Under the pieces are notes generated by a model. It worked only from the letters and a program-made list of their open reading frames with translations. It ran no database searches and was not told the origin of the DNA. This document shows positions 14,221-54,476 of a stretch of 64,000 bases of DNA, in pieces. The stretch spans positions 62,001 to 126,000 of IMG/VR virus record IMGVR_UViG_3300020190_000012; one strand, 5' to 3'. The DNA is from a virus. The translations under genes and the position numbers were made by a program. Numbering within the stretch: position 1 is the stretch's first letter; the number at the start of each line of letters is the position of its first letter.

Positions 14221-14856
14221 ATGAACGACAAGAAAATGATAAAAATATCAGACCGTCAGTGGATTGAAGCAGGCATCAAGCGTGGGTATCTCGCAAAAGG
14301 CCCCGAGGGTGTCATGCTTCGTAAAGAAGCATTGGGACCACTTGCTGCCCTCGGTGTAGGTGCTGCTCTACCTGCTGTGTGGGAAGGTGGCAAATGGCTG
14401 TGGAACAAAGCCACGGACAATCGTAGTTTAGGAGAACTTTTTTCCGGGTACGGTATCAATCCACAAAAATTTCAACAGATCCAGACGAACTACAAGTTGC
14501 TCATGAGTCACCTTGACAAGTTGTCCACGATGTCCCCGCGTGTTGCTCAGGCAGTCACGGCAGCAAAAGTCGAAATGGCAGCCAAGATGAACGACATGGC
14601 ACGACAGATTGGTGTTGCAGGAGGTTCTGCCTCTTTCGGCGGTCAGCAACTTGAGGAAGAAACCACCGCTGCACACAAGAAGCAGCTGGAGGACATTCAG
14701 AAGAAGACCCAGATGTATGGCGCTCTTGGCAAGGGACCTGGAGGCGAACTGCCGAAAGACTTCAACCCACAAGCCCCTGTCAAGCCTACTGGCGGAACAC
14801 CAAATCAGTCTGCCACAGCAGCCGCTCCTAAGCCACCAGGAGCTCTAGCAGCCTAA
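14221..14856 (+). CDS. Unknown 211-residue protein with N-terminal WxxxGxxxG tag
   Basis: Residues 9-25 (ISDRQWIEAGIKRGYLA) carry the shared tag. The next block (LGPLAALGVGAALPAVWEGG, about 38-57) is hydrophobic and could sit in a membrane. A helical region over about 80-160 is followed by a Pro/Ala-rich tail ending PKPPGALAA. Plan and position match the upstream gene, suggesting duplication and divergence. The function is unknown; a virion internal or ejection protein is my best inference. Confidence 0.7.
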   Translation: MNDKKMIKISDRQWIEAGIKRGYLAKGPEGVMLRKEALGPLAALGVGAALPAVWEGGKWLWNKATDNRSLGELFSGYGINPQKFQQIQTNYKLLMSHLDKLSTMSPRVAQAVTAAKVEMAAKMNDMARQIGVAGGSASFGGQQLEEETTAAHKKQLEDIQKKTQMYGALGKGPGGELPKDFNPQAPVKPTGGTPNQSATAAAPKPPGALAA

Positions 14857-21493: not shown

Positions 21494-24034
21494 TCAGTTG
21501 CACTTGGTCCATCCACAAGATCTGCAGGTTACACAACCTTCCTGCCTGATCAGACTGCATTTGTCTTTTGTCTCACAGCTGGCACAAGTCTCTCCTGTGA
21601 CCTCGGTGCCATCGGGAATATATTTTTTCAGAGCTCGTGCAACAGATCTGCTGAAGTTATTCATGTCTCCCTGAACCTTCTCAAGTTGCTGAACAATGAA
21701 CTGTATATCTGCACCATGACGCAAAGCAGTCGAAATTATCCTCGTGAGAGCAGCCTCGTCCTCAGTCTCCTTGTCATTCACTTTGCTGATTGACAGTCTA
21801 CTGTCATATTTATCAACGAGATCGATTCTGTATTTGCCTCTAGCCTCCTTCGTTGTCAGTCCCGAAGTGAAAGACTTGGAAACCATCAGTTCCTTATCGT
21901 CTCCATCTGATTTGTTTGGAAGGGCAAAGACTTCATATGGTTTGCTTTTTAGAAGACCAACAAACACCACGAATGGAGAGCCCTTCACCTGAATGTGATG
22001 AACATCGCAAGCGAGAGTTTCCGGCCTCTTTGGGGCTTTGGTGTTGATGATTTCATCATTCTTTTCAGCAGATGCCTTCTTTTCATCAACAAGTACCCCA
22101 GTTCTACACCCATCGCGATAGATGGTGATACCTTTGCAGCCAGCCTTCCAGGCAGTTCTATAAATCTCATCAACTGCCTCGACTGTGGCATCGGCCGACA
22201 GATTTAGGGTGGAACTGATGGCGTGATCTATGTGCTTCTGCGCCGAAGCCTGTAACTTGACTCTCTTCTTCCAATCAAGTTCAGATGCAGTGCTGCCCGC
22301 CCATGGACTTTTGGTGATGTCGTCCTCTCCTGTGACATCAACCCACATCTTAACCTTTGGCGGATACACTTTAAACTCCATCCAGTGATCTCCGTTTTGG
22401 TCAACAAAATCGGATCGGAATCCAATGTCTCCTGGGTTCCCCTTTTTTCTTCGGATGTATGGAGCAACCATGAACTGTGGTTCAATCCCAGAACTTGTCT
22501 GTGTCAAGATAGAAACTGATCCACATGGTGCCGTAGTTAGCAGAGCGATATTGCGCCTTCCGTATTTCTGCATGTCGGCATAAAGCTCTGGATCTTCAGA
22601 CTTCATTCGTTTTAGGAACGGATTGCCTGACTCTTTATCTGCGTCCCAAATTGGGAAGGCTCCAATCTCCATCGCCATGTCAACGCTGCTCCTGTAGGCA
22701 GACAATTTCATGGTCTTGTATATCTTGGTGATTGTGGATATTCCCTCATCTGAAGTGTATGGCATGCCCAAAGCTGCAAGGGTGTCTCCCACAGCAGTCA
22801 ATCCCGTTCCCGTTCGTCTGCCTCTCGAGGCAGCATTTCTTATGTCTTTCCACAACTCAAGTTCTCGCTGGCGGAATTTAGGCTCCTCGGGGTCCTTCTT
22901 GACCTTGTCAATGATCCTGTCGATGCATTCAATCTCAAGATCCACCAAATCATCCATCAATCTCTGGCACACGGCAACATGCTCAGAGAACAATTTGAAG
23001 TTGAACTTGGCCTTGCTGGTGAATGGATTTTCAACATAGCTGAAGGCATTCAAAAGCATCAGACGGCAAGAGTCAAATGCAGACAGCGGGATTTCTGAAC
23101 ATGGATTCGTGCTGATTGTTTCAAATCCATCAGATGCATAGCAATCAGCAGGACTTTCCTTGATGATGTTGTCCCAGAACAGAAGACCAGGCTCGGCCAT
23201 GTGGTGTGCATTTTCAACAATCAAGCGCCATATCTTCTTGGCATCGACATTCTTTCTGATCTGTGGCTCGTCCGAATTGCATGGCCACCTCTGCTCATAC
23301 TTTTCTCCCTTATCAACTGCCTCCAAGAAATCATCATACAGCATGACTGATATGTTGGCTCCGGTGACTTTTGTCAGGTCTCGCTTCATAACCGTAAACT
23401 CTTCGATGTCCGGGTGGTGGACATCAAGGGTCAACATAAGGGCACCGCGTCGACCTGCCTGTCCAACCTCTCTGATGGAATTTGAAAAGCGCTCTGCGAA
23501 AGATATCACGCCAGTGCTTGTTCGGGCGGCATTCCTTGTGGGGCTGCCGTTCGGTCTGAGATTGGAAAGATTCAAGCCAACTCCGCCACGACGCTTGCTG
23601 ATCTGAACCAGGCATTCGTCTGCGGACATGATAGAGCCGTAAGAATCGTGCGGAGATGCAATGACATAGCAGTTGCTCAGGCTGATGTATTGCTGGTTGT
23701 TGCCAATCCCGTACATCGGAGATCCCTGCGGCACTATGTACTTGAAGTGATCCATCAGACTGAAAAGAAATTCAGCAGAATACGGATTCTTGAACTTTTT
23801 AGCCTCTATGCGTGCGAACTCTTTTGCGATCCTCCAGTGCATGTCCTTCGGAGACTTCTCTAGCAGGTTGTTCTTTCTGTCTCGGAGGGCATATTTGTCC
23901 ACGAATACTTTTGCAGACAAGTCGTCTCCACCGAAGTAGGCCGTGCTTGCAGTAAGGGCCTCCTGATAGGAGTATATATTCTTTTCGCACGAACCACATG
24001 AAACACCGCCACAGCACTTGTTTTCGTTTTCCAT
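21494..24034 (-). CDS. nrdJ: Adenosylcobalamin-dependent (class II) ribonucleotide reductase
   Basis: Makes deoxyribonucleotides without oxygen, using vitamin B12. In 846 residues the redox Cys lies at about 122 (LSNCYV), the catalytic NPCSE at 310-314 and the partner Cys at about 323 (FDSC). A glycyl/barrel region GSVSILTQTSSGIEP follows. The C-terminal tail has six or more Cys (TCASCETKDKC, then GCVTCRSCGW) that shuttle electrons or bind zinc. An extra Cys cluster at the N-terminus (KCCGGVSCGSC) is uncommon. Thioredoxin encoded at 54064-54450 is a possible reductant. The host must supply or import cobalamin. Confidence 0.95.
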   Translation of the reverse strand: MENENKCCGGVSCGSCEKNIYSYQEALTASTAYFGGDDLSAKVFVDKYALRDRKNNLLEKSPKDMHWRIAKEFARIEAKKFKNPYSAEFLFSLMDHFKYIVPQGSPMYGIGNNQQYISLSNCYVIASPHDSYGSIMSADECLVQISKRRGGVGLNLSNLRPNGSPTRNAARTSTGVISFAERFSNSIREVGQAGRRGALMLTLDVHHPDIEEFTVMKRDLTKVTGANISVMLYDDFLEAVDKGEKYEQRWPCNSDEPQIRKNVDAKKIWRLIVENAHHMAEPGLLFWDNIIKESPADCYASDGFETISTNPCSEIPLSAFDSCRLMLLNAFSYVENPFTSKAKFNFKLFSEHVAVCQRLMDDLVDLEIECIDRIIDKVKKDPEEPKFRQRELELWKDIRNAASRGRRTGTGLTAVGDTLAALGMPYTSDEGISTITKIYKTMKLSAYRSSVDMAMEIGAFPIWDADKESGNPFLKRMKSEDPELYADMQKYGRRNIALLTTAPCGSVSILTQTSSGIEPQFMVAPYIRRKKGNPGDIGFRSDFVDQNGDHWMEFKVYPPKVKMWVDVTGEDDITKSPWAGSTASELDWKKRVKLQASAQKHIDHAISSTLNLSADATVEAVDEIYRTAWKAGCKGITIYRDGCRTGVLVDEKKASAEKNDEIINTKAPKRPETLACDVHHIQVKGSPFVVFVGLLKSKPYEVFALPNKSDGDDKELMVSKSFTSGLTTKEARGKYRIDLVDKYDSRLSISKVNDKETEDEAALTRIISTALRHGADIQFIVQQLEKVQGDMNNFSRSVARALKKYIPDGTEVTGETCASCETKDKCSLIRQEGCVTCRSCGWTKCN

Positions 24035-29052: not shown

Positions 29053-29316
29053 TCATCGGACTGGCATTATGGAATGCGCCAAAGATCTTGCAGCAGCAAT
29101 CGGCAGTTTCCCAGTCTCTTTTAAAGCCGCACATATCTCAGACTCGTCATTCGCATTCTCTACAACTGATGCAATCTTTATTGCGGCATCATCGGATATG
29201 CTGATCCCGACACAGTTTTCTATCAGTTTCTTTATGCTTTTTGGAGACTTTGCCGACATGGATCCATGAATGTCTGCTATCTTCTCCAACTGTCTCTGAT
29301 ACCAGTTGTTTATCAT
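29053..29316 (-). CDS. Unknown 87-residue helical protein
   Basis: Starts in an ATGA overlap with the superoxide dismutase gene, so it is translated with it. The sequence (MINNWYQRQLEKIADIHGSM) is helical, with Ala-rich segments near the end (IAAARSLAHSIMPVR). No motif is recognised. It might form a small complex with SOD, but nothing in the sequence shows that. Confidence 0.65.
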   Translation of the reverse strand: MINNWYQRQLEKIADIHGSMSAKSPKSIKKLIENCVGISISDDAAIKIASVVENANDESEICAALKETGKLPIAAARSLAHSIMPVR

Positions 29317-29939
29317 ACCTCTCCCTCCGACATGAGTATCCTGTTTTCCACTTCTTTCCAGTTGATTACCTCCCAGAAGTTGTTAACCCAGTCGTTCTTA
29401 CGATTACGCCTGTCAAGATAATACGCATGCTCCCACAGGTCGCATCCCAACACTGGGTAGCCGATCCCGAGGCCAAGAGGATTGTCTTGCATTTTGGTCT
29501 GCACTATGTCAAGAGTTTTGTTCCGCACCACCAGCCAAACCCACGAACTGCCGAAAGAATCAGAGCATGCATCAACAAATTCAGACTGCATGCCGTCAAT
29601 GTTTCCAAATGATTCTTCAATCATTTTATTCAGCATGTCTCCTGGCTTGTCTGGATTGGGTGTCATCATAGGCCACCATATCTGATGGTTGAAAACGCCG
29701 CCTGCGTTGTTTCTGATTTTTAGCCATTTACCGTTTTCGGCCGACCCAACTTCGACGATAAGCTTTTCTATGTCCAGTTCAACCAGAGACGGTTCATCTG
29801 CAAGAAGTTCATTGAGCTTGTCGCAGTAGGCCTTGTGGTGTTTTTGATGGTGGAGACGCATGGTTTCTGAACCTATGTGCGGGTCCAAATCTCCATATCC
29901 ATATGGCAATTGTGGAATTGTGTGCTTTATGATTGGCAT
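29313..29939 (-). CDS. Mn-type superoxide dismutase
   Basis: Converts superoxide to hydrogen peroxide and oxygen. The metal ligands of the Fe/Mn family are present: His30 (LHHQKHHKAY), His85 (GGVFNHQIWW), Asp167 and His171 (CDLWEHAYYLD). Gly in NNAGGVFNH and the Gln of MQDNPL (about 151) are the arrangement of Mn-specific rather than Fe-specific enzymes. Length (208) is normal and no signal peptide is present, so it acts in the host cytoplasm. It is followed by a coupled small gene and preceded by a tagged unknown gene. Complete and probably active. Confidence 0.93.
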   Translation of the reverse strand: MPIIKHTIPQLPYGYGDLDPHIGSETMRLHHQKHHKAYCDKLNELLADEPSLVELDIEKLIVEVGSAENGKWLKIRNNAGGVFNHQIWWPMMTPNPDKPGDMLNKMIEESFGNIDGMQSEFVDACSDSFGSSWVWLVVRNKTLDIVQTKMQDNPLGLGIGYPVLGCDLWEHAYYLDRRNRKNDWVNNFWEVINWKEVENRILMSEGEV

Positions 29940-30386
29940 TCACATTCCTGTAGGTGGAGCCGCTCCGCCTGGAGGTTCGCCAGCGGGGGTAGGAGGCTTT
30001 GGCGTCTGTGGCCCAAGCTCAAGACCATACCATCCACGTATCACGGGTGGATCCTGCGTCAGATCTACATCAAGTTGCGATGGAAATAGTCTAGAGCCGT
30101 CTGCCTGACATGCATCCATGAGTGCGCTTTCAACTGGATCATCTGAATTCTTTCTGCTTCGGAGCGCCCTCCTGAACAGCACATTGAGTCTATTCAGATG
30201 ATCTTCATCGTTATTTGTGTCTTTGTCAATAAGAGCCGCATCGATTCCTGAAACGGTGCCTGCGACTCCAGCTGGACCGCCAGTGGCTCCGCCTGGTGGA
30301 GCCCCAATATCTTGGGCAATTTTCGACGTGCCAAACGCATGACCGATCTTAAGCCAGTCTGCATACGACAACTTTACATGCTTCAT
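29940..30386 (-). CDS. Tagged unknown protein with Gly/Pro-rich ends
   Basis: A 148-residue protein. Residues 4-25 (VKLSYADWLKIGHAFGTSKI and AQ) form one of the clearest examples of the shared N-terminal tag. A Gly/Pro/Ala linker (GAPPGGATGGPAGVAG) comes next, then a helical core with RRALRSRKNSDDPVESALMD, and a Pro/Gly-rich tail. It ends one base before the SOD start and begins in an ATGA overlap with the 491-residue gene. Function unknown; virion association is an inference from the tag shared with other candidates. Confidence 0.7.
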   Translation of the reverse strand: MKHVKLSYADWLKIGHAFGTSKIAQDIGAPPGGATGGPAGVAGTVSGIDAALIDKDTNNDEDHLNRLNVLFRRALRSRKNSDDPVESALMDACQADGSRLFPSQLDVDLTQDPPVIRGWYGLELGPQTPKPPTPAGEPPGGAAPPTGM

Positions 30387-31858
30387 ATGCCCATCATTTC
30401 AAGCTTGTCATATATCTGCACAAGGTAGATGCACAGTTTAACATTGCCCAAGGCTTCTTTGCCCTGCCCGCCGCCTATCCTGGTTTTGTTTATTCTCAAA
30501 TCGCCAGTTTCTTTGTTGGTGACAAACATTTCAGAATTATACTTTTTGAAAAAGTCAAGCAGTCCACCTTTGGCAGCCTTTAGTGTCTGCACTCTAAGCT
30601 GGCTTTGACTAATTTCTTCTAGTTTGGAAAAATATCTGTTTTTACACACGATGCTGATGATTTCATCCATGTGTTTGATCACCTTGTCGACATCTTCAAT
30701 TTGTTCTGTCTCTATTCCGGCCATCATGGCCCTTCCCTGCGCCTCATAATTCCTCATATGGGCGTACCCCTGCAATCTGGAATGAACAAAAGCAGGCATA
30801 TCATCGATTGTGAGTACTGGTATACTGCTAGGAACCTGTCTCCTCAGATTCTCAGCATCAACTGGCTCCCTGGGAGTTGTAACTCTATCTCTTTTTCTTT
30901 GTCGCTCCTGAACTATTCTTTCTGCGACATCGGCAATGAACACCAGCATGCCGTCAACCTGATTTTGTGCCTCCTGTCGATCTACTCCCTTTTGTACGAG
31001 GTTGCTGACCAGGTTGCTCAAGTCTAGTCCGTTCGCCCTAATATGTGTCGCCAACTCATCTTCTTGCCCAGCAGAATTTGAGAGAATGCGCACTATCACA
31101 CTTTCAAAAGTGGAGAACATGCTTCCATTTTTTAATGCATCAGCAAATGCGGCTTCAGCACCACGAGAGAAATTTTTCTGCAATTCAACTCTTCCCGCAG
31201 CTTCAGGCGCACCCTGTCTCGCTGCTGCCGCTGCAATCTGAGCTTCAAGCTGAGTCTTTCTGTCTTGAGCAATTTTTCGAGCAGCTCCCACCATTTGGCA
31301 CCACGCCGGTATCCCGCCACGACGACCAGCATCTTCAAGGCCTTCCATAAATCTATTGTGCCTTTTTATTAAGATGTTCAACGCCTCCATTCTGATCTTT
31401 TCGGTATTTATGTGTATATCTTTGGCTTGGGTAAATATTGGATCGTTCTCATCTATGGTTCGTATCTCCTGATTGGTGATATCAAATATCGTGAATTTTT
31501 CACCAGTTTTTTTATCTTTTTCCCGCTTCAATATGAAGTAGTATACATCTCTGCCGTTAGGTCCCGGAGCCGCCTTGAACTCATGGTGCTCCAAATAATA
31601 CCATGCAGGCAGCATGAGGTTTTCTAGATTTGGAGGCAGCCAGGGCATATGCTGCCTGATCAAATCGGCAAGCACTCCTTTTCCACCCCCAGTCATTTCA
31701 TGTAGGCTTCTTGTGAACAGGGGAACCACCACGCCCTGTCCTCCCTTTGCTCTAATCTGCCCCTCTATGTCGGTTGCCACCCCCGGAATTTGCGAACGTG
31801 CATAATCAGGACTGACCTGAGCAACTACAACTTCTATATTCTTGTTTGAATTTTTCAT
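30383..31858 (-). CDS. Unknown 491-residue protein
   Basis: The N-terminal 190 residues mix strands and helices (NIEVVVAQVSPDYARSQIPG; AWYYLEHHEFKAAPGPNGRD). The remainder is long helices with Gln, Ala and Arg (RKTQLEAQIAAAAARQGAPE; VQERQRKRDRVTTPREPVDA). Near the C-terminus ETGDLRINKTRIGGGQGKEA precedes a final helix. No catalytic motif is evident. Both ends are ATGA overlaps, placing it in one operon with the two tagged proteins on either side. A structural role is possible. Confidence 0.65.
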   Translation of the reverse strand: MKNSNKNIEVVVAQVSPDYARSQIPGVATDIEGQIRAKGGQGVVVPLFTRSLHEMTGGGKGVLADLIRQHMPWLPPNLENLMLPAWYYLEHHEFKAAPGPNGRDVYYFILKREKDKKTGEKFTIFDITNQEIRTIDENDPIFTQAKDIHINTEKIRMEALNILIKRHNRFMEGLEDAGRRGGIPAWCQMVGAARKIAQDRKTQLEAQIAAAAARQGAPEAAGRVELQKNFSRGAEAAFADALKNGSMFSTFESVIVRILSNSAGQEDELATHIRANGLDLSNLVSNLVQKGVDRQEAQNQVDGMLVFIADVAERIVQERQRKRDRVTTPREPVDAENLRRQVPSSIPVLTIDDMPAFVHSRLQGYAHMRNYEAQGRAMMAGIETEQIEDVDKVIKHMDEIISIVCKNRYFSKLEEISQSQLRVQTLKAAKGGLLDFFKKYNSEMFVTNKETGDLRINKTRIGGGQGKEALGNVKLCIYLVQIYDKLEMMGI

Positions 31859-32682
31859 GCTAAACTGAAGCCTCCGATAAGGTTGTTTTTGGACAACTGT
31901 TCTAAGTCTGACTTGTTTTTGTCAGCTTGTTGTTGGATGGTTGACATTTGCTCCTGAATTTCGTTCATTGCATTCTGAATCTCCACGCAATCAGGACTTT
32001 GAGATTCATTTCCCTGCTTGCATCCGACGTTGTATGCCTGCTGCTTGGAGGCCAGTTGTCGTTGCAGAGCAGCCAGTTGATCCGCCATCTTCTTGCTGCC
32101 TCCGCTTAGGGCCTCTTGAATTCTTTTGGTTTGCTCTGCGTTCGTCTCCATGGCCTGCATGGCAACCCCTTGGGCCTGCGGAGACTCCATTTGTCCTATG
32201 GGTATCATCGGTTGCTGCTGTTGTGCTGACTTTATCCACCCCGCATTTTCGCCGATGCGGATCCAATCTTTCTTAGTCATGGAAAGCGTTAATCCAGGTG
32301 GAGCGTTCCACCGCCTGCCCATGTCTATTGGCTCGATTGCTCTCTGTTCTCTCCTTTTGCCAAACGACTGAGACCTGCCGAGTAGTCCTTTAAATTGTGA
32401 TCTGTCCTCGTATGTTCCGAAGACTTTATAGACACATTTGCCAGAATCACTCTTCACAGAATCCATGACTTTTCTATTTTGGATTTTTTTGGGATCAGCA
32501 CTGTCAAAGTACAGTTCTGGTTCTGCCAAGCCCCTGACCACGTCTTCTTCATTGACGATGTACAGCGCTATGGGAAAGGAGAAGGACTTTCCAGATGCAA
32601 TCAGGTCTTCTGCTGCTTTTGCAGCCATAAATTTGGTCACGACATCGGTTTTCTTGAGCTCATCTTCACTGCAGTTTGCCAT
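31855..32682 (-). CDS. Unknown 275-residue protein carrying the tag internally
   Basis: Residues 1-120 are a globular mixed domain (VVTKFMAAKAAEDLIASGKS). After Met135 comes TKKDWIRIGENAGWIKSAQ, the best match to the shared tag, then a Gln-rich helical region with a coiled coil. The tag stands directly after an internal Met (ATG at 32280), so a shorter 141-residue product starting with the tag may also be made, although no strong ribosome-binding site precedes it. Otherwise this is a fusion of two modules. Two Cys near 218 and 228 are the only other notable residues. Confidence 0.65.
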   Translation of the reverse strand: MANCSEDELKKTDVVTKFMAAKAAEDLIASGKSFSFPIALYIVNEEDVVRGLAEPELYFDSADPKKIQNRKVMDSVKSDSGKCVYKVFGTYEDRSQFKGLLGRSQSFGKRREQRAIEPIDMGRRWNAPPGLTLSMTKKDWIRIGENAGWIKSAQQQQPMIPIGQMESPQAQGVAMQAMETNAEQTKRIQEALSGGSKKMADQLAALQRQLASKQQAYNVGCKQGNESQSPDCVEIQNAMNEIQEQMSTIQQQADKNKSDLEQLSKNNLIGGFSLA

Positions 32683-33159: not shown

Positions 33160-33936
33160 ATGCAAAATTGGTTACTGTACAGAACCCATCAAAACGATGA
33201 AAAAACACAAGGTAGATTTGATGAGTTGAGCCACCTACTCAGTGGGATGGCAAATGTTGTATGGATGTGCGACGGAGATTCAGCCGAAGGCTGTCAGTAT
33301 GGGGGTGTATTGGGTAAAAACTCATCCATTTTTACCAATACAGATTATCGAATTCGGCAAATTTGGCCCAAAATCTTTGAAACATATGATTCTTGTCCAC
33401 AAGACACCCCTAGGGTTTTTCCCAAGGACGGTGGCCCCAAAAGACCCATCAAGTGGGTATTGGGACATCTTCCAGCACTCCAATGGTGGAGGGAAAACGG
33501 AAGACCAGAGGGCAGGTTTATGGTGTGGGAGCACGACCTGTGGTGGGATGCTCCATTTAGAGCCGCCCAGGCCCTAACTCCAGCATTTGCTCACCATAAG
33601 TTTCTTGCCCACCCGGTAAAAACATACAGACCTGGCCCTGATGCCATACAGCCGCCAACTGTGCGTCCTCCAGAATGGCTAAAGGACACCACGATATGTC
33701 ACTACACTGCCACCGTGATGTCAGCAAGACTCATGGCATCGCTTGATGAAATTAGTGAAGAAGGATGTTGGGGGCACTGCGAACTTCTAGTTCCGTCCGT
33801 GGCTCACCATCATAAGAATGGTGGAGGTGCAGCGTCTTGGATGTCCGTGGCCGGACATCCGGCCCTGCGACCAGTTATACACCGATTCCCGGGTCAATCT
33901 CCAGGGAAAAAACCCCAGAGATTATTCATTCGCTGA
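33160..33936 (+). CDS. Glycosyltransferase-like protein, GT-A type
   Basis: A 258-residue protein. FMVWEHDLWWDAPF (about residues 121-134) looks like the donor-binding acidic strand of a GT-A enzyme. A C-terminal GCWGHCELLVPSVAHHHKNG segment resembles the acceptor-side GGHxExxxP region of bacterial homologues. The N-terminal half of the 551-residue protein at 41284 has the same plan (ICINEYDTWW, then LYNNEMRIGTTA), so the two are related. The sugar and acceptor are unknown. Its 3' end overlaps the convergent cytosine methyltransferase by 11 bases. Confidence 0.55.
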   Translation: MQNWLLYRTHQNDEKTQGRFDELSHLLSGMANVVWMCDGDSAEGCQYGGVLGKNSSIFTNTDYRIRQIWPKIFETYDSCPQDTPRVFPKDGGPKRPIKWVLGHLPALQWWRENGRPEGRFMVWEHDLWWDAPFRAAQALTPAFAHHKFLAHPVKTYRPGPDAIQPPTVRPPEWLKDTTICHYTATVMSARLMASLDEISEEGCWGHCELLVPSVAHHHKNGGGAASWMSVAGHPALRPVIHRFPGQSPGKKPQRLFIR

Positions 33937-35965
33937 GCCCCTCTAGGCTCAGTATCCCTGCAGCTATCCACTGTGAGCAGTTAGAAACAACACCGTTGCC
34001 ACACTGTTTGTAACGCTGCGCATTGCTAATCGTCACGATACGGCCATCTTCTTCTTCTCCAAACTCATTCCAGTCATGCGGCCATCCCATGAGGACGCAG
34101 CACTCAACGGGGGTCAGACGGCGAACGACCATACCTCCACGGCTGTGGGCTGGTTCAGTCTCTGTCCGCACTACCGCATGGGTGTCGCGTTCTCCAGTAT
34201 CAAACGCGTTGAGCGTGTTGCTGTGGTCGGCAGGAACCCAAGACTCATCGTCTGTATTTGTCTGTGCCCTAGCAGACTTGCGGAACACATCCGACTGGCT
34301 GATCACGCAGTCACTGGAATCCTTGCCCGTCCTGAGGGAGTGATGCAGGTCGTCAGAAAGTTTCTGATTCATTCCATCATATGCTAGGGCTGGGTTGTTT
34401 TCATGCTGCACAATACATTTTCCTTCGCTAACATATTGATTTCCAACACCCTTATAGTCTCTTGCCGCTAATGATCCCACCACCTCTTGGTGATATTTAT
34501 CATTCTGAGCAATATAGGTTTGGGCATGGTGACTGGTTGGCGCAGGCTGAAGTGCCTGGAGGGCGTTGGCAACTTCGAGCGGAGTTGCGCTGAAATTATT
34601 TTTCTTTGCATCTTCGCGTATGCTGTATGCTTGAGTAATTTCCTGACCAGATATAGCGACGTGATTTGCAGAATCTCCAAGACCACCTGCGGTCAGCGGT
34701 GAAACAACATCTGTGCTGCACGATTCTGCATTTCCAGTGCGTTGATCCCTAGTGAAAAATCTTGGCTGAAATGCAAGTGCTTCAACGGCATCTGGCTGCA
34801 TCACGCCCTGTGGAGATGAGCCGTCCAGCGCATATGCGTCATTTGATACACCTATTCCATTTGCGCCCGTCTGTCCAAGCCTGAAAGCCATGGTTTCTTC
34901 AGACTGTTGTGCGATAACCGGGTGATTAAACTCGTGCACACCTGCGCGACCCATGCATGATCGCAGAGCACCAACCTCATCTGTTGGTACGATACCAGTC
35001 TGCTGATTTACATACCTAAATCCCTGACATGGCACATGTTCTATGACCGCAGCAAAGTTGCCCTTGTCTGGCATGAATTGATCATGACATCTCGTTGTCA
35101 AGCTCGACGATTCGTCTCCTGCGTCCCACCATTTCCCCTTCCCTTCTTCGGCGAAGAACTTGGCTTTGCCGACCTCTCCGACTTCGCTGCCCTCGTTGAG
35201 GGCTTCCGTAATTGCTTTGATTTTTTGCTCGCTGAAGATGCTTTCTTCCCTTCCGAGCCCTGTTGCGGAGGCTCCTCCACCCTGTTCACCTGCTGATTGA
35301 GAGCCTCTTTCAGCAACTGGGGGAGGAGCTTGCCCCTGCGCTCTGCACGCCTCAATATGCCTTCGCAAGCTTTTTTGCTGAGTTTGTATTGGCTCAAGTA
35401 GTCCGAGCACCATGGCTGAGCGGGACTCTGTAGGACCTCCGACAACTTCACGCGAGGCAACGACAAAGACTCTCCTTCGTCTTTGCGCAACTCCGAAGTA
35501 GCGGGCATCAAGAACTCGGTAGGCGATGTCAGGATACCCGCTGTCTGCCATTTCACCGAGTACCACTCCGAAGTCTTTTCCTCCGTTTGAGCTGAGGGCT
35601 CCCGGAACGTTTTCCCATACCACCCAGCGAGGACTCTTGGCCCGAACAAGTCGAATGAATTCATGGAATAAGCCTGACCTTTCTCCTTCTAGACCCTTTC
35701 TTTTACCAGCCACTGATAAATCTTGACACGGGCTGCCACCTATTATGATGTCGACATCCTCAAGGTCTTCCGCAGCCACCTTGGTGATGTCCCCGAATAT
35801 CTTCGTGTGGGGGTGCTGCTTGCGCAAGACCTTTTGGCAGGTCTTGTCCCACTCCACAGCCCAGCACAACTCACAACCCTCCCGCATGAAACCGAGGCTG
35901 AATCCGCCCACCCCCGCGAACAGGTCTCCAACCTTCAGTTTTTTCTTCCCTGTATTGTCAAACAT
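33926..35965 (-). CDS. DNA (cytosine-5) methyltransferase with a large repeat-rich insert
   Basis: Methylates cytosine in DNA, probably protecting phage DNA from restriction. Motif I is VGDLFAGVGGFSLGF (12-26), motif IV GGSPCQDLS (76-84, catalytic Cys80), motif VI WENVPG (about 117-122) and motif VIII QRRRRVFVV (about 162-170). The C-terminus has RRLTPVECCVLMGWP and RYKQCGNGVV (motifs IX-X). Between them about 400 residues replace the usual target-recognition domain and contain about eight degenerate 25-30-residue repeats. The start is ATG 35965, eight bases after GGAGG. At 679 residues it is well above the usual 330-450. Confidence 0.92.
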   Translation of the reverse strand: MFDNTGKKKLKVGDLFAGVGGFSLGFMREGCELCWAVEWDKTCQKVLRKQHPHTKIFGDITKVAAEDLEDVDIIIGGSPCQDLSVAGKRKGLEGERSGLFHEFIRLVRAKSPRWVVWENVPGALSSNGGKDFGVVLGEMADSGYPDIAYRVLDARYFGVAQRRRRVFVVASREVVGGPTESRSAMVLGLLEPIQTQQKSLRRHIEACRAQGQAPPPVAERGSQSAGEQGGGASATGLGREESIFSEQKIKAITEALNEGSEVGEVGKAKFFAEEGKGKWWDAGDESSSLTTRCHDQFMPDKGNFAAVIEHVPCQGFRYVNQQTGIVPTDEVGALRSCMGRAGVHEFNHPVIAQQSEETMAFRLGQTGANGIGVSNDAYALDGSSPQGVMQPDAVEALAFQPRFFTRDQRTGNAESCSTDVVSPLTAGGLGDSANHVAISGQEITQAYSIREDAKKNNFSATPLEVANALQALQPAPTSHHAQTYIAQNDKYHQEVVGSLAARDYKGVGNQYVSEGKCIVQHENNPALAYDGMNQKLSDDLHHSLRTGKDSSDCVISQSDVFRKSARAQTNTDDESWVPADHSNTLNAFDTGERDTHAVVRTETEPAHSRGGMVVRRLTPVECCVLMGWPHDWNEFGEEEDGRIVTISNAQRYKQCGNGVVSNCSQWIAAGILSLEGLSE

Positions 35966-36040
35966 GAGACGATCCTCCAGCATAAACTTTTCGGAGTACC
36001 TAAACAGGTCCTCCCTAAAAAAGTTGCCACAAGATCAATC

Positions 36041-42948: not shown

Positions 42949-44010
42949 ATGAATAAATTGCATCTGCTTACAACAGGAGTCCTTGCCAACGACCCCATGA
43001 TCGAGTGGTCTTGCAACCATATCGCGGACAGCACCGTAAGGAAATGCTTTGAAACAGACTGGACATTCGTGACGCACAGCGAGGAAAGAGCCAGCAAGGT
43101 GGTTCATCAGGCTCGCGATGTGCCAATGGATGTTAAGGTTTTGATAGACCCTAGTGCCAGAAGAAATCGCAATGATTCTACACTGGCTGCAATACGGACA
43201 CTTGCAGAAGGCGATTGGGTGTGGATCATCCCCGAGGGGGCCATGGCGGATGTCCACTCGGGTGGAGAAATGCTTAAGCTAATCAGTGCTTCCGATGCTC
43301 CAATTACTGTCGAAAGAGACTTGTGCCGTGGTATTGATCATCTGATTTTCCGTCGCCCATCGGATGCTGTGCTTGATGGGTCTTCAGATGCAGATGAGTT
43401 CTTCACTGACATCAGAAACAGATCCAGATCGATACCCTGCTCGGATGTCTACATATCCCGAGGTGCGGAAAATGACTTTGAAAAGTTATGTGTCATGTAT
43501 TGGAACATGAAGTTTTGGAAGCACCGATACTCCGGATTCTACCATGACATTCTCTCTCCGATGCGGGGCATGGGCTGCGCTCTCCTTGAAATCGGCGTTG
43601 CGTTCGGTGGCAGCCTGAGAACCTGGAGGGACTATCTTGGGGGTGGGGCGGTGTTTGGGCTAGACTCTTACCCAGAGTCTTCCCTTGCGGAGTCTGGGCT
43701 TGTCTGTTTGACTGGAGACTCAACCACTGCCGAAGGTGTTGCTGAAGTTTCTAGGATCAATAAGGGCAAGTTCAATGTGATTGTTGATGACGGAGACCAC
43801 GATCCACAATCGCAGTTCAAAACAGCATGCAATTTCATGCCCCTGCTAAATGAAGACGGTCACTACATCATTGAAACTGCGCACGGATTTGAATGGCTCG
43901 TGCCCGAACTGAAGAATAAATTCAGCAATATGAACATCGAGGTCATCGATCAGAGGGTCAGGTCGGGGTATGGAGATTCAGTGATTGTGTACTGCAAAGC
44001 ATCAAGATAA
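42949..44010 (+). CDS. Unknown N-terminal domain fused to a SAM methyltransferase
   Basis: Residues 1-170 resemble the N-terminal style of glycosyltransferases (HLLTTGVLANDPMIEWSCNH; GDWVWIIPEGAMAD) but have no clear DxD. From about 190 a class I methyltransferase begins: LLEIGVAFGGSLRTWRDYL, GLDSYPES, NVIVDDGDHDPQSQF and GHYIIETAHG, the MycE/MycF-like pattern of sugar O-methyltransferases. It follows the two-domain glycosyltransferase by nine bases and is the last gene before a convergent operon. A bifunctional sugar-transfer and methylation enzyme is plausible. Confidence 0.75.
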   Translation: MNKLHLLTTGVLANDPMIEWSCNHIADSTVRKCFETDWTFVTHSEERASKVVHQARDVPMDVKVLIDPSARRNRNDSTLAAIRTLAEGDWVWIIPEGAMADVHSGGEMLKLISASDAPITVERDLCRGIDHLIFRRPSDAVLDGSSDADEFFTDIRNRSRSIPCSDVYISRGAENDFEKLCVMYWNMKFWKHRYSGFYHDILSPMRGMGCALLEIGVAFGGSLRTWRDYLGGGAVFGLDSYPESSLAESGLVCLTGDSTTAEGVAEVSRINKGKFNVIVDDGDHDPQSQFKTACNFMPLLNEDGHYIIETAHGFEWLVPELKNKFSNMNIEVIDQRVRSGYGDSVIVYCKASR

Positions 44011-44033
44011 CTCAAACTTTTCTATAACTACTT

Positions 44034-44882
44034 TCAATGCATTTTGCTTACAAGTTTTTTTTGCAACTCTTCTAGACGAGTTCTCCAGTCATTTATAGCA
44101 ATATGTTGTTTTTGATTCATTATTTTCTCATCGTCTGATATGCTTCTACATTTTTCTGCTGCCTCTTCCCATGAAGAGGCAACCACCCATCCTTCTATTT
44201 TTTCATCTATGAATGTTTCTCTTATTTCGTCGAGACTTCCAACCACCACTGGCAAAGCGCCAGCTGATAGCGCCTCGTATATTCTCAAGCAATTGAGGGA
44301 CAAATTACCCCTCCCAATTGGCACAAACTTTGAGTTAAGATACATATTTTTCATAGTAGTCTTGTCTGCATTCCCAAAAAATCCATTTTCCAATTTGCCG
44401 AAAGCCGCATGCATTTTTGCTCGGTCAGACTTCATATTCCCAACGAAAGACCACATACGTGATCTTTCGCAAGATGGAGTCAAAGATGTTTTCGCGCATG
44501 GTTCCGAGAACATGTCAACGCCATATCCTAATGGTATAATTGTAACGTTTTTACAACAAGGGTAGCCTGCATGACGATACTGCCTAAGATACAGTTGGCA
44601 ATAATTACTTAGACTGTCAAATTTTGGCCTATTCCCCCACTCATCAGAACAATGTATTATGATTGTTGGCTTTATTCTTTCACATACATCTGCAACATCA
44701 TGATATGAATGCACATTGGATGTGAACACCAAAATTCCATATTTTGTATTTTTGGAAAACTCTATTGTTTTTATTTTTTGCCACTGGAAAAAATTTACAG
44801 GAATGTTTGGCAATAACTCCTGTGTGATGAAAGATAGTTCCCACAATCCTTGCTCAAAAAGAATTTCTGCATGATGACACAT
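44034..44882 (-). CDS. Exostosin-like (GT47) glycosyltransferase
   Basis: A 282-residue protein. The C-terminal donor-binding region NCLRIYEALSAGALPVVVGS is characteristic of exostosin/GT47-type and other GT-B enzymes, preceded by SFVGNMKSDRAKMH and FVPIGRGNLS. The N-terminal acceptor half is normal for the family but short (KPTIIIHCSDEWGNRPK). Ends convergently 23 bases from the neighbouring methyltransferase with no terminator hairpin. Base composition is more AT-rich than the genes at 40-44 kb. Confidence 0.75.
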   Translation of the reverse strand: MCHHAEILFEQGLWELSFITQELLPNIPVNFFQWQKIKTIEFSKNTKYGILVFTSNVHSYHDVADVCERIKPTIIIHCSDEWGNRPKFDSLSNYCQLYLRQYRHAGYPCCKNVTIIPLGYGVDMFSEPCAKTSLTPSCERSRMWSFVGNMKSDRAKMHAAFGKLENGFFGNADKTTMKNMYLNSKFVPIGRGNLSLNCLRIYEALSAGALPVVVGSLDEIRETFIDEKIEGWVVASSWEEAAEKCRSISDDEKIMNQKQHIAINDWRTRLEELQKKLVSKMH

Positions 44883-45003
44883 GACTTTTTTTATCTCTAT
44901 GCCTTTCTATTTGGTTTTGAAGTCACCTTTGTCACCAGAAAACACCCCTATTCAACCATTCATATTATTTTGTCGGTAATCTCTGAAGCATTCCATGCGC
45001 ATT

Positions 45004-45897
45004 TCAAAGTTTGCTGAGAACCATCTTGGCAACCATCTTCTCAGTAATCAAATTTTCCTTGGTGAATGCGAACAACTCATCAAGTATTTCCGCGTAGTCG
45101 GATGGGACGATTTTTTGTTCAGCCCATCTATTCGCATTGATTACTTGTTTCTTTGGGAAATTGGTCATTGTCAAGGTTGGACAGGCTTCAAGATTAGGAA
45201 AATACGGTACGCAGTGGGAAGCTAGTACCTCGTAGTGCCGGTTACAGTCCCACCCTGCCTTTTTGTGAGTGACTCCAAAAAAAGATTTGTTGTAGTCTGT
45301 GTAATAATCTTTTTGTGTCCAAAAGTTCCACTTGTAAGTTGACGGATCGCCGGGTATGCATGTGCCAAACATCTGTTCCTTTTCTAGAAATTTGGTAGCA
45401 ACAGCAGATTCTGTTGCTGCAAAACTTATTGGCAGAACTCTAGGCCGGCCCGTAACAAGTTCTCTTTTGAAGTATAGTCCATACTGTGTTAAAGACATAT
45501 CTGTCCCTTGATCGTCTTCTCCATCAAAAATTAGCACACGATCAAAAGGATACACCTTACTTACATCTTCAAAATGATCTCTACATCTACGAATGCTTCC
45601 ATATACAATCAGATCATAGAACTTATTTAGGATTTTATCCTTGATTGTTTGTGCATCTTCTAAATTGGGAACATGTGCCATTTTTCCGTACCCTATTCCC
45701 CTGCCCCACATTCCATTCAGGTCAGGGCATCCCTCAAGCATGTAGAAAGGGTGGTGCGTCTCCCAAATCTTAAATCCAGGCTGGCGAACGAATCCCTCAT
45801 ACACATGGTCGTTCAAAAAGTCAACATGACCAAAATGGTTTACAAACAGTACATTGGTAAGTGGTGTGCTTTTTTTTATGGTTGAGTTTTCGGCCAT
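45004..45897 (-). CDS. Putative glycosyltransferase, GT-B-like, 297 residues
   Basis: Near residue 230 GWDCNRHYEVLASHCVPYFP resembles the (R)xxExxAxGxxP donor loop of GT-B enzymes, and the N-terminal half (TNVLFVNHFGHVDFLNDHVY) is a Rossmann-like start. FYDLIVYGSIRRCRDHFEDV also fits. No specific family is recognised, so function is inferred from this loop and from the surrounding glycosyltransferases. It follows the upstream glycosyltransferase by three bases. Confidence 0.55.
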   Translation of the reverse strand: MAENSTIKKSTPLTNVLFVNHFGHVDFLNDHVYEGFVRQPGFKIWETHHPFYMLEGCPDLNGMWGRGIGYGKMAHVPNLEDAQTIKDKILNKFYDLIVYGSIRRCRDHFEDVSKVYPFDRVLIFDGEDDQGTDMSLTQYGLYFKRELVTGRPRVLPISFAATESAVATKFLEKEQMFGTCIPGDPSTYKWNFWTQKDYYTDYNKSFFGVTHKKAGWDCNRHYEVLASHCVPYFPNLEACPTLTMTNFPKKQVINANRWAEQKIVPSDYAEILDELFAFTKENLITEKMVAKMVLSKL

Positions 45898-45900
45898 AGA

Positions 45901-47067
45901 TTATTCATCCTTTTGCTCACAGACTAACTGCACAAGGTGCCCCCAATAGTCGCTATTGGGCGTGATTGTCGGATATCCAACTGGATTGTTATTGAATGTC
46001 CATTTAAATATATGCGGCACAGTGCCTTCGATTTCGATAACAAACCCATCTTCGCACGCCTTCCATGATCCTGCTAACTTCGTGCTTTTATCGCTCAAGC
46101 ACTCCATTATTGATCCATCATCCATCAACTTAATCATTCTGTAAACCACATTATGTCCAAACTGACATCCTGTTTGATGCTCAAGATGCCAGGGACACCA
46201 GTACATCTTAAGAGCCAAATCCTTGCCAACAAAATTCTTGGCTTTGAATCCTTTTTTAAGACTGTAATACAATTTGGAAATCAGGTTATCTACATCCATT
46301 GGCGCTTTGAGAAGGGCCTTCTGAAGTGACTCGGCATTTACATGTAGAGTTCTCCTAAATGTTCCGTGCACAAACCAGCGATCTCCGGTTTTGCACAAAA
46401 CAGAAGAGCAAACCAACGACGGCCTCCCCGTCCCTCCAGAATCTCCCCAATCCGATCCTTTTATAGTCTTGACTTTAAGCAATCCAGCAAGTAGACAAAT
46501 CGCGATATCAGGCGTTCCTACCTCGTCTGACCAGTCCTGAAGTTTGCCATGCCACATATTCTTTTGAGATGAAGATAGTTCTATAAATTCTCTATTAACT
46601 ACAGCTACGCATCCTGCCATAAATATGTGACACAAATCAAATCCAGGAAAATGCTTTGCTGCCAAGTCGTGAACATGACCCCATGCGCATAAATCGATGC
46701 CGGGAGTTGTGATCCAACATGCAGGCTTGCCATCTTCTTGTTTCGCCAAATCACAGAACTTGTCTACATCAATTATAACATCGTCATCACAAAATATGCA
46801 ATAATCATAATCGGTAGATGCTATTCCATGCTCTAGAGCCCATGCATGCCGTCTGCTTGTGGGATGAGCAGATTTATTTTGTACCTGTACATGATCTGCA
46901 GAAATCCATTCCCACTCTTGCGGGATGAAGTCTGGGCGTGGGCCTTCGGAAACAAACTTCATAAATACATCATGTTTTGTTGACTTGATAGCTCCGGCGG
47001 TCAGCACATGAAGCCTGTCTATATTCTTGCTTGTCCCAAGGATGATGCACGCTACCTTTTTTCTCAT
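45901..47067 (-). CDS. GT-A glycosyltransferase, tandem copy A
   Basis: ATG 47067 is used because AAAGG stands eight bases before it and it aligns with the paralogue's start. VACIILGTSKNIDRLHVLTA opens the fold; YDYCIFCDDDVIIDVDKF (about residues 92-109) is the DxD nucleotide-sugar site. Later GCVAVVNREF fits an acceptor-side strand. The C-terminal 120 residues form an added domain also present in the paralogue at 47167-48285. The shared N-terminus (ILGTSKNIDRL) shows the two arose by duplication. Donor and acceptor are unknown. Confidence 0.75.
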   Translation of the reverse strand: MRKKVACIILGTSKNIDRLHVLTAGAIKSTKHDVFMKFVSEGPRPDFIPQEWEWISADHVQVQNKSAHPTSRRHAWALEHGIASTDYDYCIFCDDDVIIDVDKFCDLAKQEDGKPACWITTPGIDLCAWGHVHDLAAKHFPGFDLCHIFMAGCVAVVNREFIELSSSQKNMWHGKLQDWSDEVGTPDIAICLLAGLLKVKTIKGSDWGDSGGTGRPSLVCSSVLCKTGDRWFVHGTFRRTLHVNAESLQKALLKAPMDVDNLISKLYYSLKKGFKAKNFVGKDLALKMYWCPWHLEHQTGCQFGHNVVYRMIKLMDDGSIMECLSDKSTKLAGSWKACEDGFVIEIEGTVPHIFKWTFNNNPVGYPTITPNSDYWGHLVQLVCEQKDE

Positions 47068-47166
47068 AATCATATCCTTTCATGAAGTGTTGATTTCGTT
47101 GCTTTTTCGCTTATTTTATCATGTAGTTTTATAACATGCCGATTTCCCAACAAATAACCTGAGAAT

Positions 47167-48285
47167 CTATAAAATGGGAACAAGCATGAAAACGGACGAA
47201 TCGTATCCTTTCCATTTTTGTTGCCCTATGCCAACCGGAAATCGATTGTCGTAAAGACCAAAAAAATCAATTGTACTCGAATGACTTGCTGCATCAATCT
47301 TCCACCCCCCTGCAGCTGGCTCCCATGCTCCATCAAGATCAGGTCTTCCTTTTGATTGAAATCTTCCATTAGCATGCATGACACAGTCGTTTATGGCAAT
47401 ATCGTTTTGGTCTGGATAGTCTATTCGACTTCTCCACGGCCTCCAAAACCACGCTAAATGGAATGGCATATCCAAATAATTCTTTGCCTTAACCCCGGAA
47501 CTAATCGTAGGATGAATAGTTTTTAGCAAATCTTTCGCATCACCGAATGGTGCATTTTTCAATGCGCATATCAATGCATCAGGAGGAACAGTCGGACTCT
47601 CTCCAGTGGCATGGATATGCCATTGCGTTCCGGAATGAATGAGCAAAGACGAATTTACAAAGTCTGGCCAACAAGTACCACGATTTGTCATTCCACGAAC
47701 ATGCTGTGCTCCTGCAAGAAAGGCTAGTATTGAAATCTGCAAATCAGGTATAAAACTGCTCCTAGATATGTCATGAGATATTTGTAGCATACATTTTAGC
47801 AAATCTTCGTTTTTTCTTACATCAACACATAACTCTCTGTTTATCACTGACGTGCAATACCCACACCACATTGAAGATAACTGACGGTTATTTAGATATC
47901 TTCTTGCGTGCTTTCTTATTGCTTGTGCAGTTTCTATTTTGCAGTATTCTCCTGGATGTGTAGTCCATACGCATGGTCCATTTTGCTGATTTGCAATTTC
48001 AACAAACCTATCCACATCTATGATAACATCATCATCACAGAATATGTTATAGTCATATGACTCATTGGCCACACCGTCTATCAAGGCATGGACATGGCGA
48101 TCAGGCAGTCTGTATTTCTCACTTGGAATCCAGTTCCAATCCTGAGGAAGAAAACTAGGCTTTTCACCCTCGGCCATAAAATTCATTGTCACTTCATGTC
48201 TTTGTGAACGTATTGCACAGGCTGTCAAAACCCTCAATCGATCTATATTTTTCGATGTCCCAAGTATGTTAATCGATATCTTCAT
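47167..48285 (-). CDS. GT-A glycosyltransferase, tandem copy B
   Basis: A 372-residue paralogue of the downstream gene. ISINILGTSKNIDRLRVLTA is the N-terminus, and YDYNIFCDDDVIIDVDRF carries the DxD-type site. CTSVINRELC and a later NSSLLIHSGTQWHIHATGES match equivalent parts of copy A. The C-terminal region differs more, so the two may use different acceptors. A 99-base gap separates the copies. It is preceded by the 3-dehydrase gene and presumably uses the deoxysugar made by that operon or another. Confidence 0.75.
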   Translation of the reverse strand: MKISINILGTSKNIDRLRVLTACAIRSQRHEVTMNFMAEGEKPSFLPQDWNWIPSEKYRLPDRHVHALIDGVANESYDYNIFCDDDVIIDVDRFVEIANQQNGPCVWTTHPGEYCKIETAQAIRKHARRYLNNRQLSSMWCGYCTSVINRELCVDVRKNEDLLKCMLQISHDISRSSFIPDLQISILAFLAGAQHVRGMTNRGTCWPDFVNSSLLIHSGTQWHIHATGESPTVPPDALICALKNAPFGDAKDLLKTIHPTISSGVKAKNYLDMPFHLAWFWRPWRSRIDYPDQNDIAINDCVMHANGRFQSKGRPDLDGAWEPAAGGWKIDAASHSSTIDFFGLYDNRFPVGIGQQKWKGYDSSVFMLVPIL

Positions 48286-48297
48286 GTCAGGAACCCT

Positions 48298-49650
48298 TCA
48301 CACCCTTATGTTTGCCGCCCTCTCAAAATAGGCGTCTACAACTTTCTGCACATAGTCCAACTGCCTGTCGTCTATGACTTGACTTGTGCCCACAAAAAAT
48401 GTGTCTCTTGTTGACTTCGTGGCGTTTGGATATTTCTTTTTTGGATCGCATGTCTTTGCCAAATCCGAATATGCCGGCTGCAACAACAGATTACCTCCGA
48501 AATAGTTCCTTGTCTGTATCCTGTTGTCTTCAAGGTACATTGTAAAATGTGAACGCTTTAAATAGACTCCGTCTCTTATTGTCAATGGGAATGCAAACCA
48601 AGATGGGTCGGATTTGCTGGTGGCGCAAGGAAGATGGAACACAGAGTCATATTTACTGAAGATATCCATTAGCCTTGCAAAATTCCTTTGCCTCCTTTGT
48701 GCGAAAAGCTCTAGCTTTTCTAGCTGCACAAGTCCAATTGCTGCTTGTAAATCTAAGGGCTTTAAGTTGTATCCTATTTCCTCATAAATGTACTTGTGGT
48801 CAAAAACATCATCCGGGAACGCAGGAAGCCAATTGCTGAATCTTTTTTTGCACATTCCGTTCTTCAGACATGACGACCCTTGTCCCGTGCAGTAACATCC
48901 TCGTCCCCATTCTCTGAGGCTTTTTACCACCTCAGCGCAAGTTTCTGACCGACATGCGACAAAGCCTCCTTCGCCCATGGTTATATGATGTGCAGGATAG
49001 AAAGAACAGGAAGCCATGTCTCCAAATGACCCCAAAGGACGTTTGTCAAATGTACTTCCAAGTGCATCGCAACAGTCTTCTAGCAATATCAAATCGTAAT
49101 TCTTCACTATGGACATAAGCCAGTCCATATCCGGAGGATTCCCAAGGACATGTGCAAACATGATTGCTTTTGCGCCTTTTTTGGCTGCATCTTCAACCTG
49201 TCTCAAATTCATATTCAGACCATCGATGTCAATATCTACGAATACGGGCTTGAAACCATTTTGCATAATTGGATTGACTGTCGTAGGGAACCCGGCTACT
49301 GGTGTTATTATCTTGCTTCCTTTTGGCAAGTTCCAAAGGCGCTTGGACTTTAATGCAGATACCATCAAAAGATTGGCACTTGAACCACTGTTTACAAGAG
49401 CACCAAATCCCTTATCCATCAATTTGGAAAACTTTCTCTCAAATCTTATTCCGCTGTCTCCGAGTCCTAGCCATCCTGATAGCAAAGATTGAACTCCTGC
49501 CTTGTATTCGGCAGCATCAAAAAAGCTACCAGCGTATCTCACCCAATCACGACCCTCCGTCCATTCAGACTTGTTTTCATTAAACAACTGCTCTATCAAG
49601 TTGTAAATTTGACTTTCTATGGAAGTTTTGTTGATAGTCGGTTCAATCAT
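48298..49650 (-). CDS. RfbH-like NDP-4-keto-6-deoxyhexose 3-dehydrase
   Basis: DegT/DnrJ/EryC1-fold protein in which the PLP lysine is replaced by His: SFYPAHHITMGEGG (residues 217-230) is the RfbH/AscC (E1) signature. Cys194, Cys252, Cys254 and Cys267 sit as the C-X57-C-X-C-Xn-C [2Fe-2S] ligands of E1, with a five-residue insertion before the last. It would remove the C-3 hydroxyl of a 4-keto-6-deoxyhexose. The usual partner reductase (E3, AscD/RfbI) is not in the window. ATG 49650 is nine bases after GAGG. Known enzymes use CDP sugars, whereas the neighbours here make a dTDP sugar. Confidence 0.88.
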   Translation of the reverse strand: MIEPTINKTSIESQIYNLIEQLFNENKSEWTEGRDWVRYAGSFFDAAEYKAGVQSLLSGWLGLGDSGIRFERKFSKLMDKGFGALVNSGSSANLLMVSALKSKRLWNLPKGSKIITPVAGFPTTVNPIMQNGFKPVFVDIDIDGLNMNLRQVEDAAKKGAKAIMFAHVLGNPPDMDWLMSIVKNYDLILLEDCCDALGSTFDKRPLGSFGDMASCSFYPAHHITMGEGGFVACRSETCAEVVKSLREWGRGCYCTGQGSSCLKNGMCKKRFSNWLPAFPDDVFDHKYIYEEIGYNLKPLDLQAAIGLVQLEKLELFAQRRQRNFARLMDIFSKYDSVFHLPCATSKSDPSWFAFPLTIRDGVYLKRSHFTMYLEDNRIQTRNYFGGNLLLQPAYSDLAKTCDPKKKYPNATKSTRDTFFVGTSQVIDDRQLDYVQKVVDAYFERAANIRV

Positions 49651-50485: not shown

Positions 50486-50486
50486 T

Positions 50487-52366: not shown

Positions 52367-52402
52367 ATAACTATTTACCTACCGATTGCCATCACCCCTC
52401 CA

Positions 52403-52437
52403 ACGACAAAACCGCACCCAGGGTGCGGTTTTGTCGT
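52403..52437. terminator. Long perfect hairpin, intrinsic terminator
   Basis: acgacaaaaccgcaccc pairs with gggtgcggttttgtcgt around a single base, giving about 17 potential pairs with A-rich and T-rich outer arms. It stands between the end of the 102-residue gene (52459) and the start of the sugar operon, so it would insulate the two and works in either direction. Confidence 0.85.
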
Positions 52438-52458
52438 GCAAATGGCGTATTTTAAGAA

Positions 52459-52767: not shown

Positions 52768-52792
52768 AAAACAATCATACGCTCCCCAACAA

Positions 52793-52866: not shown

Positions 52867-52873
52867 AAATTGG

Positions 52874-53245: not shown

Positions 53246-53256
53246 ACGGTCTCTAA

Positions 53257-53329: not shown

Positions 53330-53359
53330 TCGTAATGAGCGGTTGCTCTATTTGGATGT

Positions 53360-54067: not shown

Positions 54068-54450
<383 letters not shown>

Positions 54451-54476
54451 GCCAACAATCTTACGACTGTGGCGGG

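Follow-up and report, generated by a model that had tools for sequence, protein, structure and literature searches.

Encapsulins are HK97-fold shells to which enzymes are directed by a short address peptide, and these cargo-loading peptides are usually C-terminal and uncleaved, with no maturation protease. Assemblins are known to cut between Ala and Ser; to our knowledge, the herpesvirus assemblin processes only the scaffold and the protease, and no set of cargo proteins. In T4, a 10-residue N-terminal CTS brings internal proteins into the prohead core and is then removed by gp21; the IPs carry the CTS, and Alt a short propeptide (PMC9026906). The prohead protease of SPN3US takes some short propeptides, 20 and 24 residues long, off protein N-termini (PMC10052503). 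ADP-ribosyltransferases (ARTs), Nudix and related proteins have been argued to be frequent head cargo of myoviruses, with at least 10 ARTs in phage G, and the ART, Nudix, KptA and cREC classes to be virion-packaged or tied to that network (PMC9503650). A literature search that covered mainly openly accessible papers found no description of the peptides reported here.

The DNA analysed here (the window, 64,000 nucleotides) corresponds to bases 62,001-126,000 of a virus record that is 130,267 bases long and classified as linear. The capsid protein of the record matches phrog_2522 and has the major capsid protein of Bacillus phage G as its nearest named relative (52% identity), and the record is placed in the phage-G-like megaphage clade. 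Searches of viral contigs found 143 related stretches, some of them within records of 330-548 kb. Because of the capsid kinship and the size of these records, ours is most likely an incomplete fragment of a phage-G-like large phage, and not the complete phage assumed in the initial annotation. The window also encodes a C-5 cytosine DNA methylase (33926-35983, minus strand, 685 aa, E 4e-63), the large subunit of ribonucleotide reductase with a TSCPD domain (21494-24034, minus strand) and a block of ORFs that by eye are sugar-nucleotide/glycosyltransferase-like (42949-52366; DegT-like aminotransferase, nucleotidyltransferase, epimerase). A portal protein ORF lies at 54441-56654 of the record (L004:16441-18654); since its residues 573-693 also match HNH endonuclease families, the sequence suggests an inserted or fused endonuclease.

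Six proteins of the window had been described as sharing a full copy of one N-terminal peptide, WxxIGxxxGWIKxAQ, and two more as starting with partial copies. All six full copies were located where they had been placed. The features are as follows.

2231-2275, minus strand: short element MFNFLRRMGLIKSAS, N-terminus of the ORF ending at 1583
13168-13275, plus strand: long-form tag MAHIKTASNGTQKISMSTPEWIDIGLKRGLLSIDPR of gene 13168-14199 (HMM E 3e-9)
14221-14304, plus strand: tag MNDKKMIKISDRQWIEAGIKRGYLAKGP of gene 14221-14856 (HMM E 5e-9)
29940-30386, minus strand: ORF of a tagged Pro/Gly-rich protein, 148 aa
30309-30386, minus strand: tag MKHVKLSYADWLKIGHAFGTSKIAQ, N-terminus of gene 29940-30386 (HMM E 1.6e-9)
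31855-32682, minus strand: ORF carrying an internal tag, 275 aa
32218-32289, minus strand: internal tag TLSMTKKDWIRIGENAGWIKSAQQ (HMM E 8e-11)
59382-59432, minus strand: short element MKNIYRSEDGLIKVAES, N-terminus of the 1118-aa ORF 56076-59432
59791-59811, minus strand: GWVKTAS close to the C-terminus of the 59764-60510 protein (direct reading)
60421-60492, minus strand: tag MLLVVDIESLEKIGRMAGWIKSAM of gene 59764-60510 (HMM E 6e-9)
60594-61955, plus strand: glucose-6-phosphate dehydrogenase (G6PD, zwf; Pfam G6PD_N/G6PD_C E 2e-44/1e-61; PDB 4lgv E 3e-93)
60612-60674, plus strand: tag MHRKFSKSEWLKIGRRTGWLS on zwf (HMM E 7e-11; probable ATT start)

Two of the copies differ from their first description: that of gene 31855-32682 is internal (near residue 134) and not N-terminal, and that of gene 59764-60510 lacks the Trp. 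GLIKSAS and GLIKVAES, taken before for partial copies, belong to a separate shorter element, hhKxA (h = hydrophobic), which is itself N-terminally enriched in relatives; the ORF with MFNFLRRMGLIKSAS has an identical N-terminus in G002.

A profile search of the record had been proposed as a check. Built from five window copies, the profile recovered the zwf copy (E 1e-4; 1,590 six-frame ORFs of the 130-kb record) and a new copy, MIYRLSKNDWVEIGKKTGWLKTAY, at 129058-129540 of the record, outside the window (E 3e-6); the next-best match in six frames of the 130-kb record had E 0.6. The motif thus stands far above chance level in the record, and chance recurrence is ruled out by the gap in the profile scores (E 1e-4 vs 0.6). 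With a 7-row profile there are seven strong copies in the 130-kb record (E 3e-11 to 6e-9), all within its 75-130 kb portion. In gene 13168 the tag is longer, with 35 residues (MAHIKTASNGTQKISMSTPEWIDIG...), and this is the form common among relatives; 34 of 36 tag positions are identical in the G002 orthologue of the gene, as against 77% over the remainder of the protein. Homologues of gene 14221-14856 bear the tag in G002, G052 and G005. The internal tag of the 275-aa protein is 83% identical to that of its G002 orthologue, which begins MFNKKAS, and the 128 residues before the tag are 42% identical. For the 148-aa protein, a Pfam/PHROG search found no significant family. The gene directly downstream of it in the same gene run (29313-29939, minus strand) encodes an Fe/Mn superoxide dismutase (Sod_Fe_C, E 2e-33) with no clear tag.

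Scanning viral contigs with degenerate codons and searching related records with profiles gave about 74 deduplicated carriers of the long tag. In 63 of them (85%) the tag lies within residues 1-50 and in 11 it lies deeper, so that it is not always N-terminal: some 15% are internal copies, and a few lie at the extreme C-terminus (L196, L197 and L241 are examples of either kind). The distance from the nearest ATG to the tag peaks at 2 residues (MKIKLSK..., MQYKLSK...) and at 12. The full form reads M-K-[IL]-[VI]-K-T-A-S-G-K-x-x-I-K-[IM]-S-K-x-E-W-x-x-I-G-K-K-A-G-W-x-K-x-A-[QE]. No long tag of the strict pattern was found in 85,000 prokaryotic genomes; nor do phage G, LR745208, Tunturi_5 and T4 have the long tag, and tblastn of a 34-aa tag against phage GenBank gave no match. 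An 850-aa protein with a weak HATPase match and an HEVTH motif (L242:105-2654) has the tag TIKMSKKKWESIGKIAGWIY at its extreme C-terminus. Several tagged proteins (L013, L015, L024, L183) run on into a CW-GY-x-x-G-x-K-x-K-x-GK-x-VPNCVP module; this is another recurrent phage module, which seven PHROG families of unknown function contain at differing places, and for that reason it is uninformative on the tag.

Shorter peptides occupy the same place in many other proteins. In 80 relatives, the ORFs near the capsid gene have hh[KR]xA at residues 1-9 at 79 per 10,000 positions vs 14 beyond residue 60, and W-h-[KR]-x-A at 22 vs 0.6, while four control patterns showed no N-terminal enrichment in the same test. 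Typical forms are MNWYKKAQ (in a run of adjoining L095 genes) and MKIIKTA, also as MKIIKTAS, and [NSG]WY[KR] starts 53 distinct proteins. T4 does not show the short-pattern enrichment (8.8 vs 9.2), and Tunturi_5 shows little (17 vs 10, four matches). In G045, a 476-kb record, the short pattern is present in 11/40 ORFs lying no more than 20 kb from the capsid gene and in 4/576 of the others (Fisher 2e-11); such clustering was sought in the window's record and in G002 and not seen, and is known from this one genome. In the window's own proteome the KxA enrichment is weak. Past the window, at 127112-127996 of the record (L006:2112-2996), a NUDIX protein (E 1e-19) has an internal-start MWYKRAKD, and a second, partly similar ORF adjoining it has an identical N-terminus; the window's own phage therefore also has the short tag class.

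Long and short peptides replace one another on homologous proteins. The protein of gene 29940-30386 (MKHVKLSYADWLKIG...) and that of L009:2502-2954 (MNNWYKISQ...) align over 91 aa of their bodies with 37% identity (E 7e-6). Further swaps are found on an NPWAVC module (long tag vs MKILKTAS), on DUF5662 (MSWYKTAS vs MKLIRTAK vs MKIIKIAE) and on a KptA-like protein (MINWYKLSQ vs MKIFKISQ). By sequence, the two halves of the long tag, KTAS first and then the W-x-K-x-A tail, resemble short peptides. A protein at 55016-56089 of the window (minus strand; DUF5872, E 9e-12) has a stretch that resembles L179:1230-1727, which starts MNWYKIAQ, and by eye the two are a possible tagged/untagged pair.

The record also contains a 1,886-aa gene (48,402-54,062 of the record) that matches a head maturation protease (phrog_18299, E 3e-14). 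In an AlphaFold model of its first 260 residues, residues 1-38 are disordered and a confident domain begins at about residue 40. The best 30 Foldseek matches are herpesvirus assemblins and T4 gp21 (5jbl), with probabilities mostly of 0.8-1.0 and E 0.002-0.2, the uppermost reaching 0.94-1.0 with E of about 0.002-0.01, and the predicted domain has the herpes assemblin / T4 gp21 fold. Among the proteases of 30 relatives, K5 is present in 29 and A7 in 26, and K33, A35 and S36 in 28, 27 and 23, respectively. These two elements, K5-x-A7 and K33-x-A35-S36, are nearly invariant; both lie inside the disordered stretch, the second bordering the folded domain, and they agree with the K-x-A(S/Q) seen in the tags. 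In the protease of the window's record, the first KxA is missing and the second is partial (KQAA).

Phage G has an N-terminal peptide of its own, MKRLIKKA/S: M[KR]RL begins 20 of its 664 ORFs, where 1.4 would be expected from composition. Five of six ART-like ORFs start with M[KR]RL (p 9e-8, a value that overstates their independence, because some are paralogues); the ART assignment is by regular expression and weak Pfam PARP matches (E 2.5e-4 to 0.02). Other M[KR]RL carriers have Nuc_deoxyri_tr2, SLOG, ferritin-like, GNAT and ParB_N domains. We infer that MKRL is the equivalent of the other tag classes, to which it is linked solely by position and cargo type. By motif, L209 and L186 are further ART-like carriers.

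What, then, could such a peptide do? On balance, we favour the reading that the tag is a capsid-targeting propeptide akin to the T4 CTS, and that the protease probably removes it by cutting behind KxA. It would be a portable signal, mostly N-terminal, on proteins destined for the forming head, and would bring this cargo into the prohead, where the maturation protease would remove it after the terminal K-x-A (between A and Q in GWIKSAQ, between A and S in KTAS); the cargo would then be ejected into the host. In relatives, the shorter equivalents (NWYKKAQ, KIIKTAS, and MKRLIKKA/S in phage G) would do the same job. Head delivery, a recognition partner, cleavage and cargo ejection are the steps that we infer. 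A prohead-protease signal was among the ideas of the initial annotation, and it gains indirect support from the KxA(S) of the protease family, the capsid-gene clustering in one megaphage and the effector-like cargo, which includes ADP-ribosyltransferase-like, Nudix, KptA-like and cREC classes. Against head targeting count the long tags that lack KxA (GYLAKG, GLLSID, GWLSNY), the incomplete KxA elements of the window's protease, the internal and C-terminal tags, and the presence of the long tag in only about one quarter of the capsid-relative records, many of which are fragments. Nor are long tags near the capsid gene: in 12 records of relatives there is no significant closeness (p 0.09-0.7), and likewise none in the window's own record, while the single subset with a marginal p of 0.016 is a post hoc one.

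The tag could also be an address for somewhere else than the head (a replication compartment, the membrane or the tail, for example), reached without proteolysis. The long-tag genes of the record are scattered over both strands, one of them encodes a metabolic enzyme, most carriers are proteins of unknown function, and internal or C-terminal copies fit a cleaved propeptide poorly. We consider this unlikely, as the short equivalents cluster at capsid genes in that one megaphage and are also seen within the maturation protease, and swaps tie them to the long form. A compartment other than the head, also suggested at first, finds no support in our analysis.

The long form is predicted to fold, with strands at residues 2-5 and 11-14, a helix at 17-27 and pLDDT of about 92 over residues 11-30, the W-x-K-x-A tail being unstructured in the prediction. 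It may thus be a small beta-beta-alpha unit followed by this tail. Such a basic unit, at times internal or C-terminal, might be a binding domain for DNA or a host protein that is shuffled among regulators and inhibitors and has no sorting role. We think this quite improbable: a comparison with PDB folds gave no match, G6PD is among the carriers, and peptides of 7-8 residues replace the tag on homologous cargo, an exchange that a specific folded domain would forbid.

Returning to a targeting peptide, its sequence itself is under purifying selection, which is absent from the stretch after it. In five tandem genes of G036, the tag codons differ by 83 synonymous vs 23 non-synonymous changes, and the next 20 codons are unrelated (189/200 changes non-synonymous). 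The 40 nt of DNA upstream of tagged genes are 31-36% identical in three genomes, near chance. The peptide is therefore conserved and the DNA leader is not. The near-identical N-termini of these small tandem genes would also be expected from the spread of a duplicated 5' cassette (promoter, ribosome site and first codons) encoding a functionless peptide, but this is very improbable given the codon changes, and a duplicated 5' regulatory cassette is largely excluded by the upstream DNA, which is not conserved.

The tag is modular, as had been proposed, and the bodies that bear it are unrelated. Eight bodies tested from the record show no BLAST match to one another at E<1, and no Pfam family is common to any two of 81 carriers. 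The homology of zwf to solved G6PDs starts at residue 24-38, directly past the tag, and by sequence it is a genuine G6PD with a tag added ahead of its normal start. The start is probably ATT at 60612, as judged from an AGGAG at 60600-60604 and a 7-nt spacer; the N-terminus is then MHRKFSKSEW, and the spacing of tag and start therefore matches that of other carriers. Although tag-bearing orthologues of genes 13168 and 14221 exist elsewhere, a single protein family whose C-termini diverged past recognition is hardly conceivable, with G6PD, HATPase-, ART-, HExxH-like and zinc-ribbon bodies among the carriers and untagged homologues known (for the tagged protein of L217/L114, in human-gut phage sequence), and is excluded by the G6PD carrier.

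Extended to the clade, head targeting leads to a tentative scheme in which phage-G-like megaphages possess lineage-specific head-import peptides (MKRLIKKA, NWYKKAQ, KIIKTAS and the folded SKxEWxxIGxxxGWIKxAQ), which the capsid core might recognise and the assemblin-type protease might cut off behind K-x-A, and which could deliver dozens of enzymes (NAD/ADP-ribose and RNA-repair effectors, G6PD) together with the DNA. If this is true, the cargo with which a megaphage enters its host can be read from N-termini, giving leads for dozens of unknown proteins per genome, and the T4 capsid-targeting principle reaches a megaphage clade with additional sequence classes. A virion-packaged metabolic enzyme, G6PD, would then be predicted. 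Since phage G is available in culture, the main prediction is open to a direct test.

Of the known systems, the encapsulin cargo-loading peptides differ from the tag, which is mostly N-terminal and so does not share their C-terminal position. The herpesvirus assemblin (S21) has the predicted protease fold in common with our record. SPN3US and phiKZ are, like the present phage, giant phages, with a P1' Ser preference (PMC10052503); unlike here, their site consensus ends in Glu, most of their propeptides are long and not shared, and they belong to another phage lineage. T4 offers the most points of comparison. As with the CTS of IPI-III and Alt, a short N-terminal peptide is found on mutually unlike proteins of one phage. 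As in T4, the record encodes a prohead protease of predicted gp21/assemblin type, with a site-conforming element near the protease N-terminus (K-x-A in 26/30 and K-x-A(S) in 27/30 relatives, partial in the window's protease). Some carriers, ART-like by regular expression, motif or weak Pfam PARP matches, may correspond to the ADP-ribosyltransferases of the T4 cargo. A search of T4 with the motif profile gave no match, hence there is no sequence homology to the T4 CTS. The megaphage tags end in K-x-A, whereas T4 has (L/I)-x-E (the ipII/ipIII peptide in the T4 record is MKTYQEFIAEA). Unlike the CTS, the long tag is a predicted folded unit of 21-35 residues that is sometimes internal or C-terminal; a genome can encode as many as about 20 carriers of a tag (phage G), and there are several interchangeable sequence classes.
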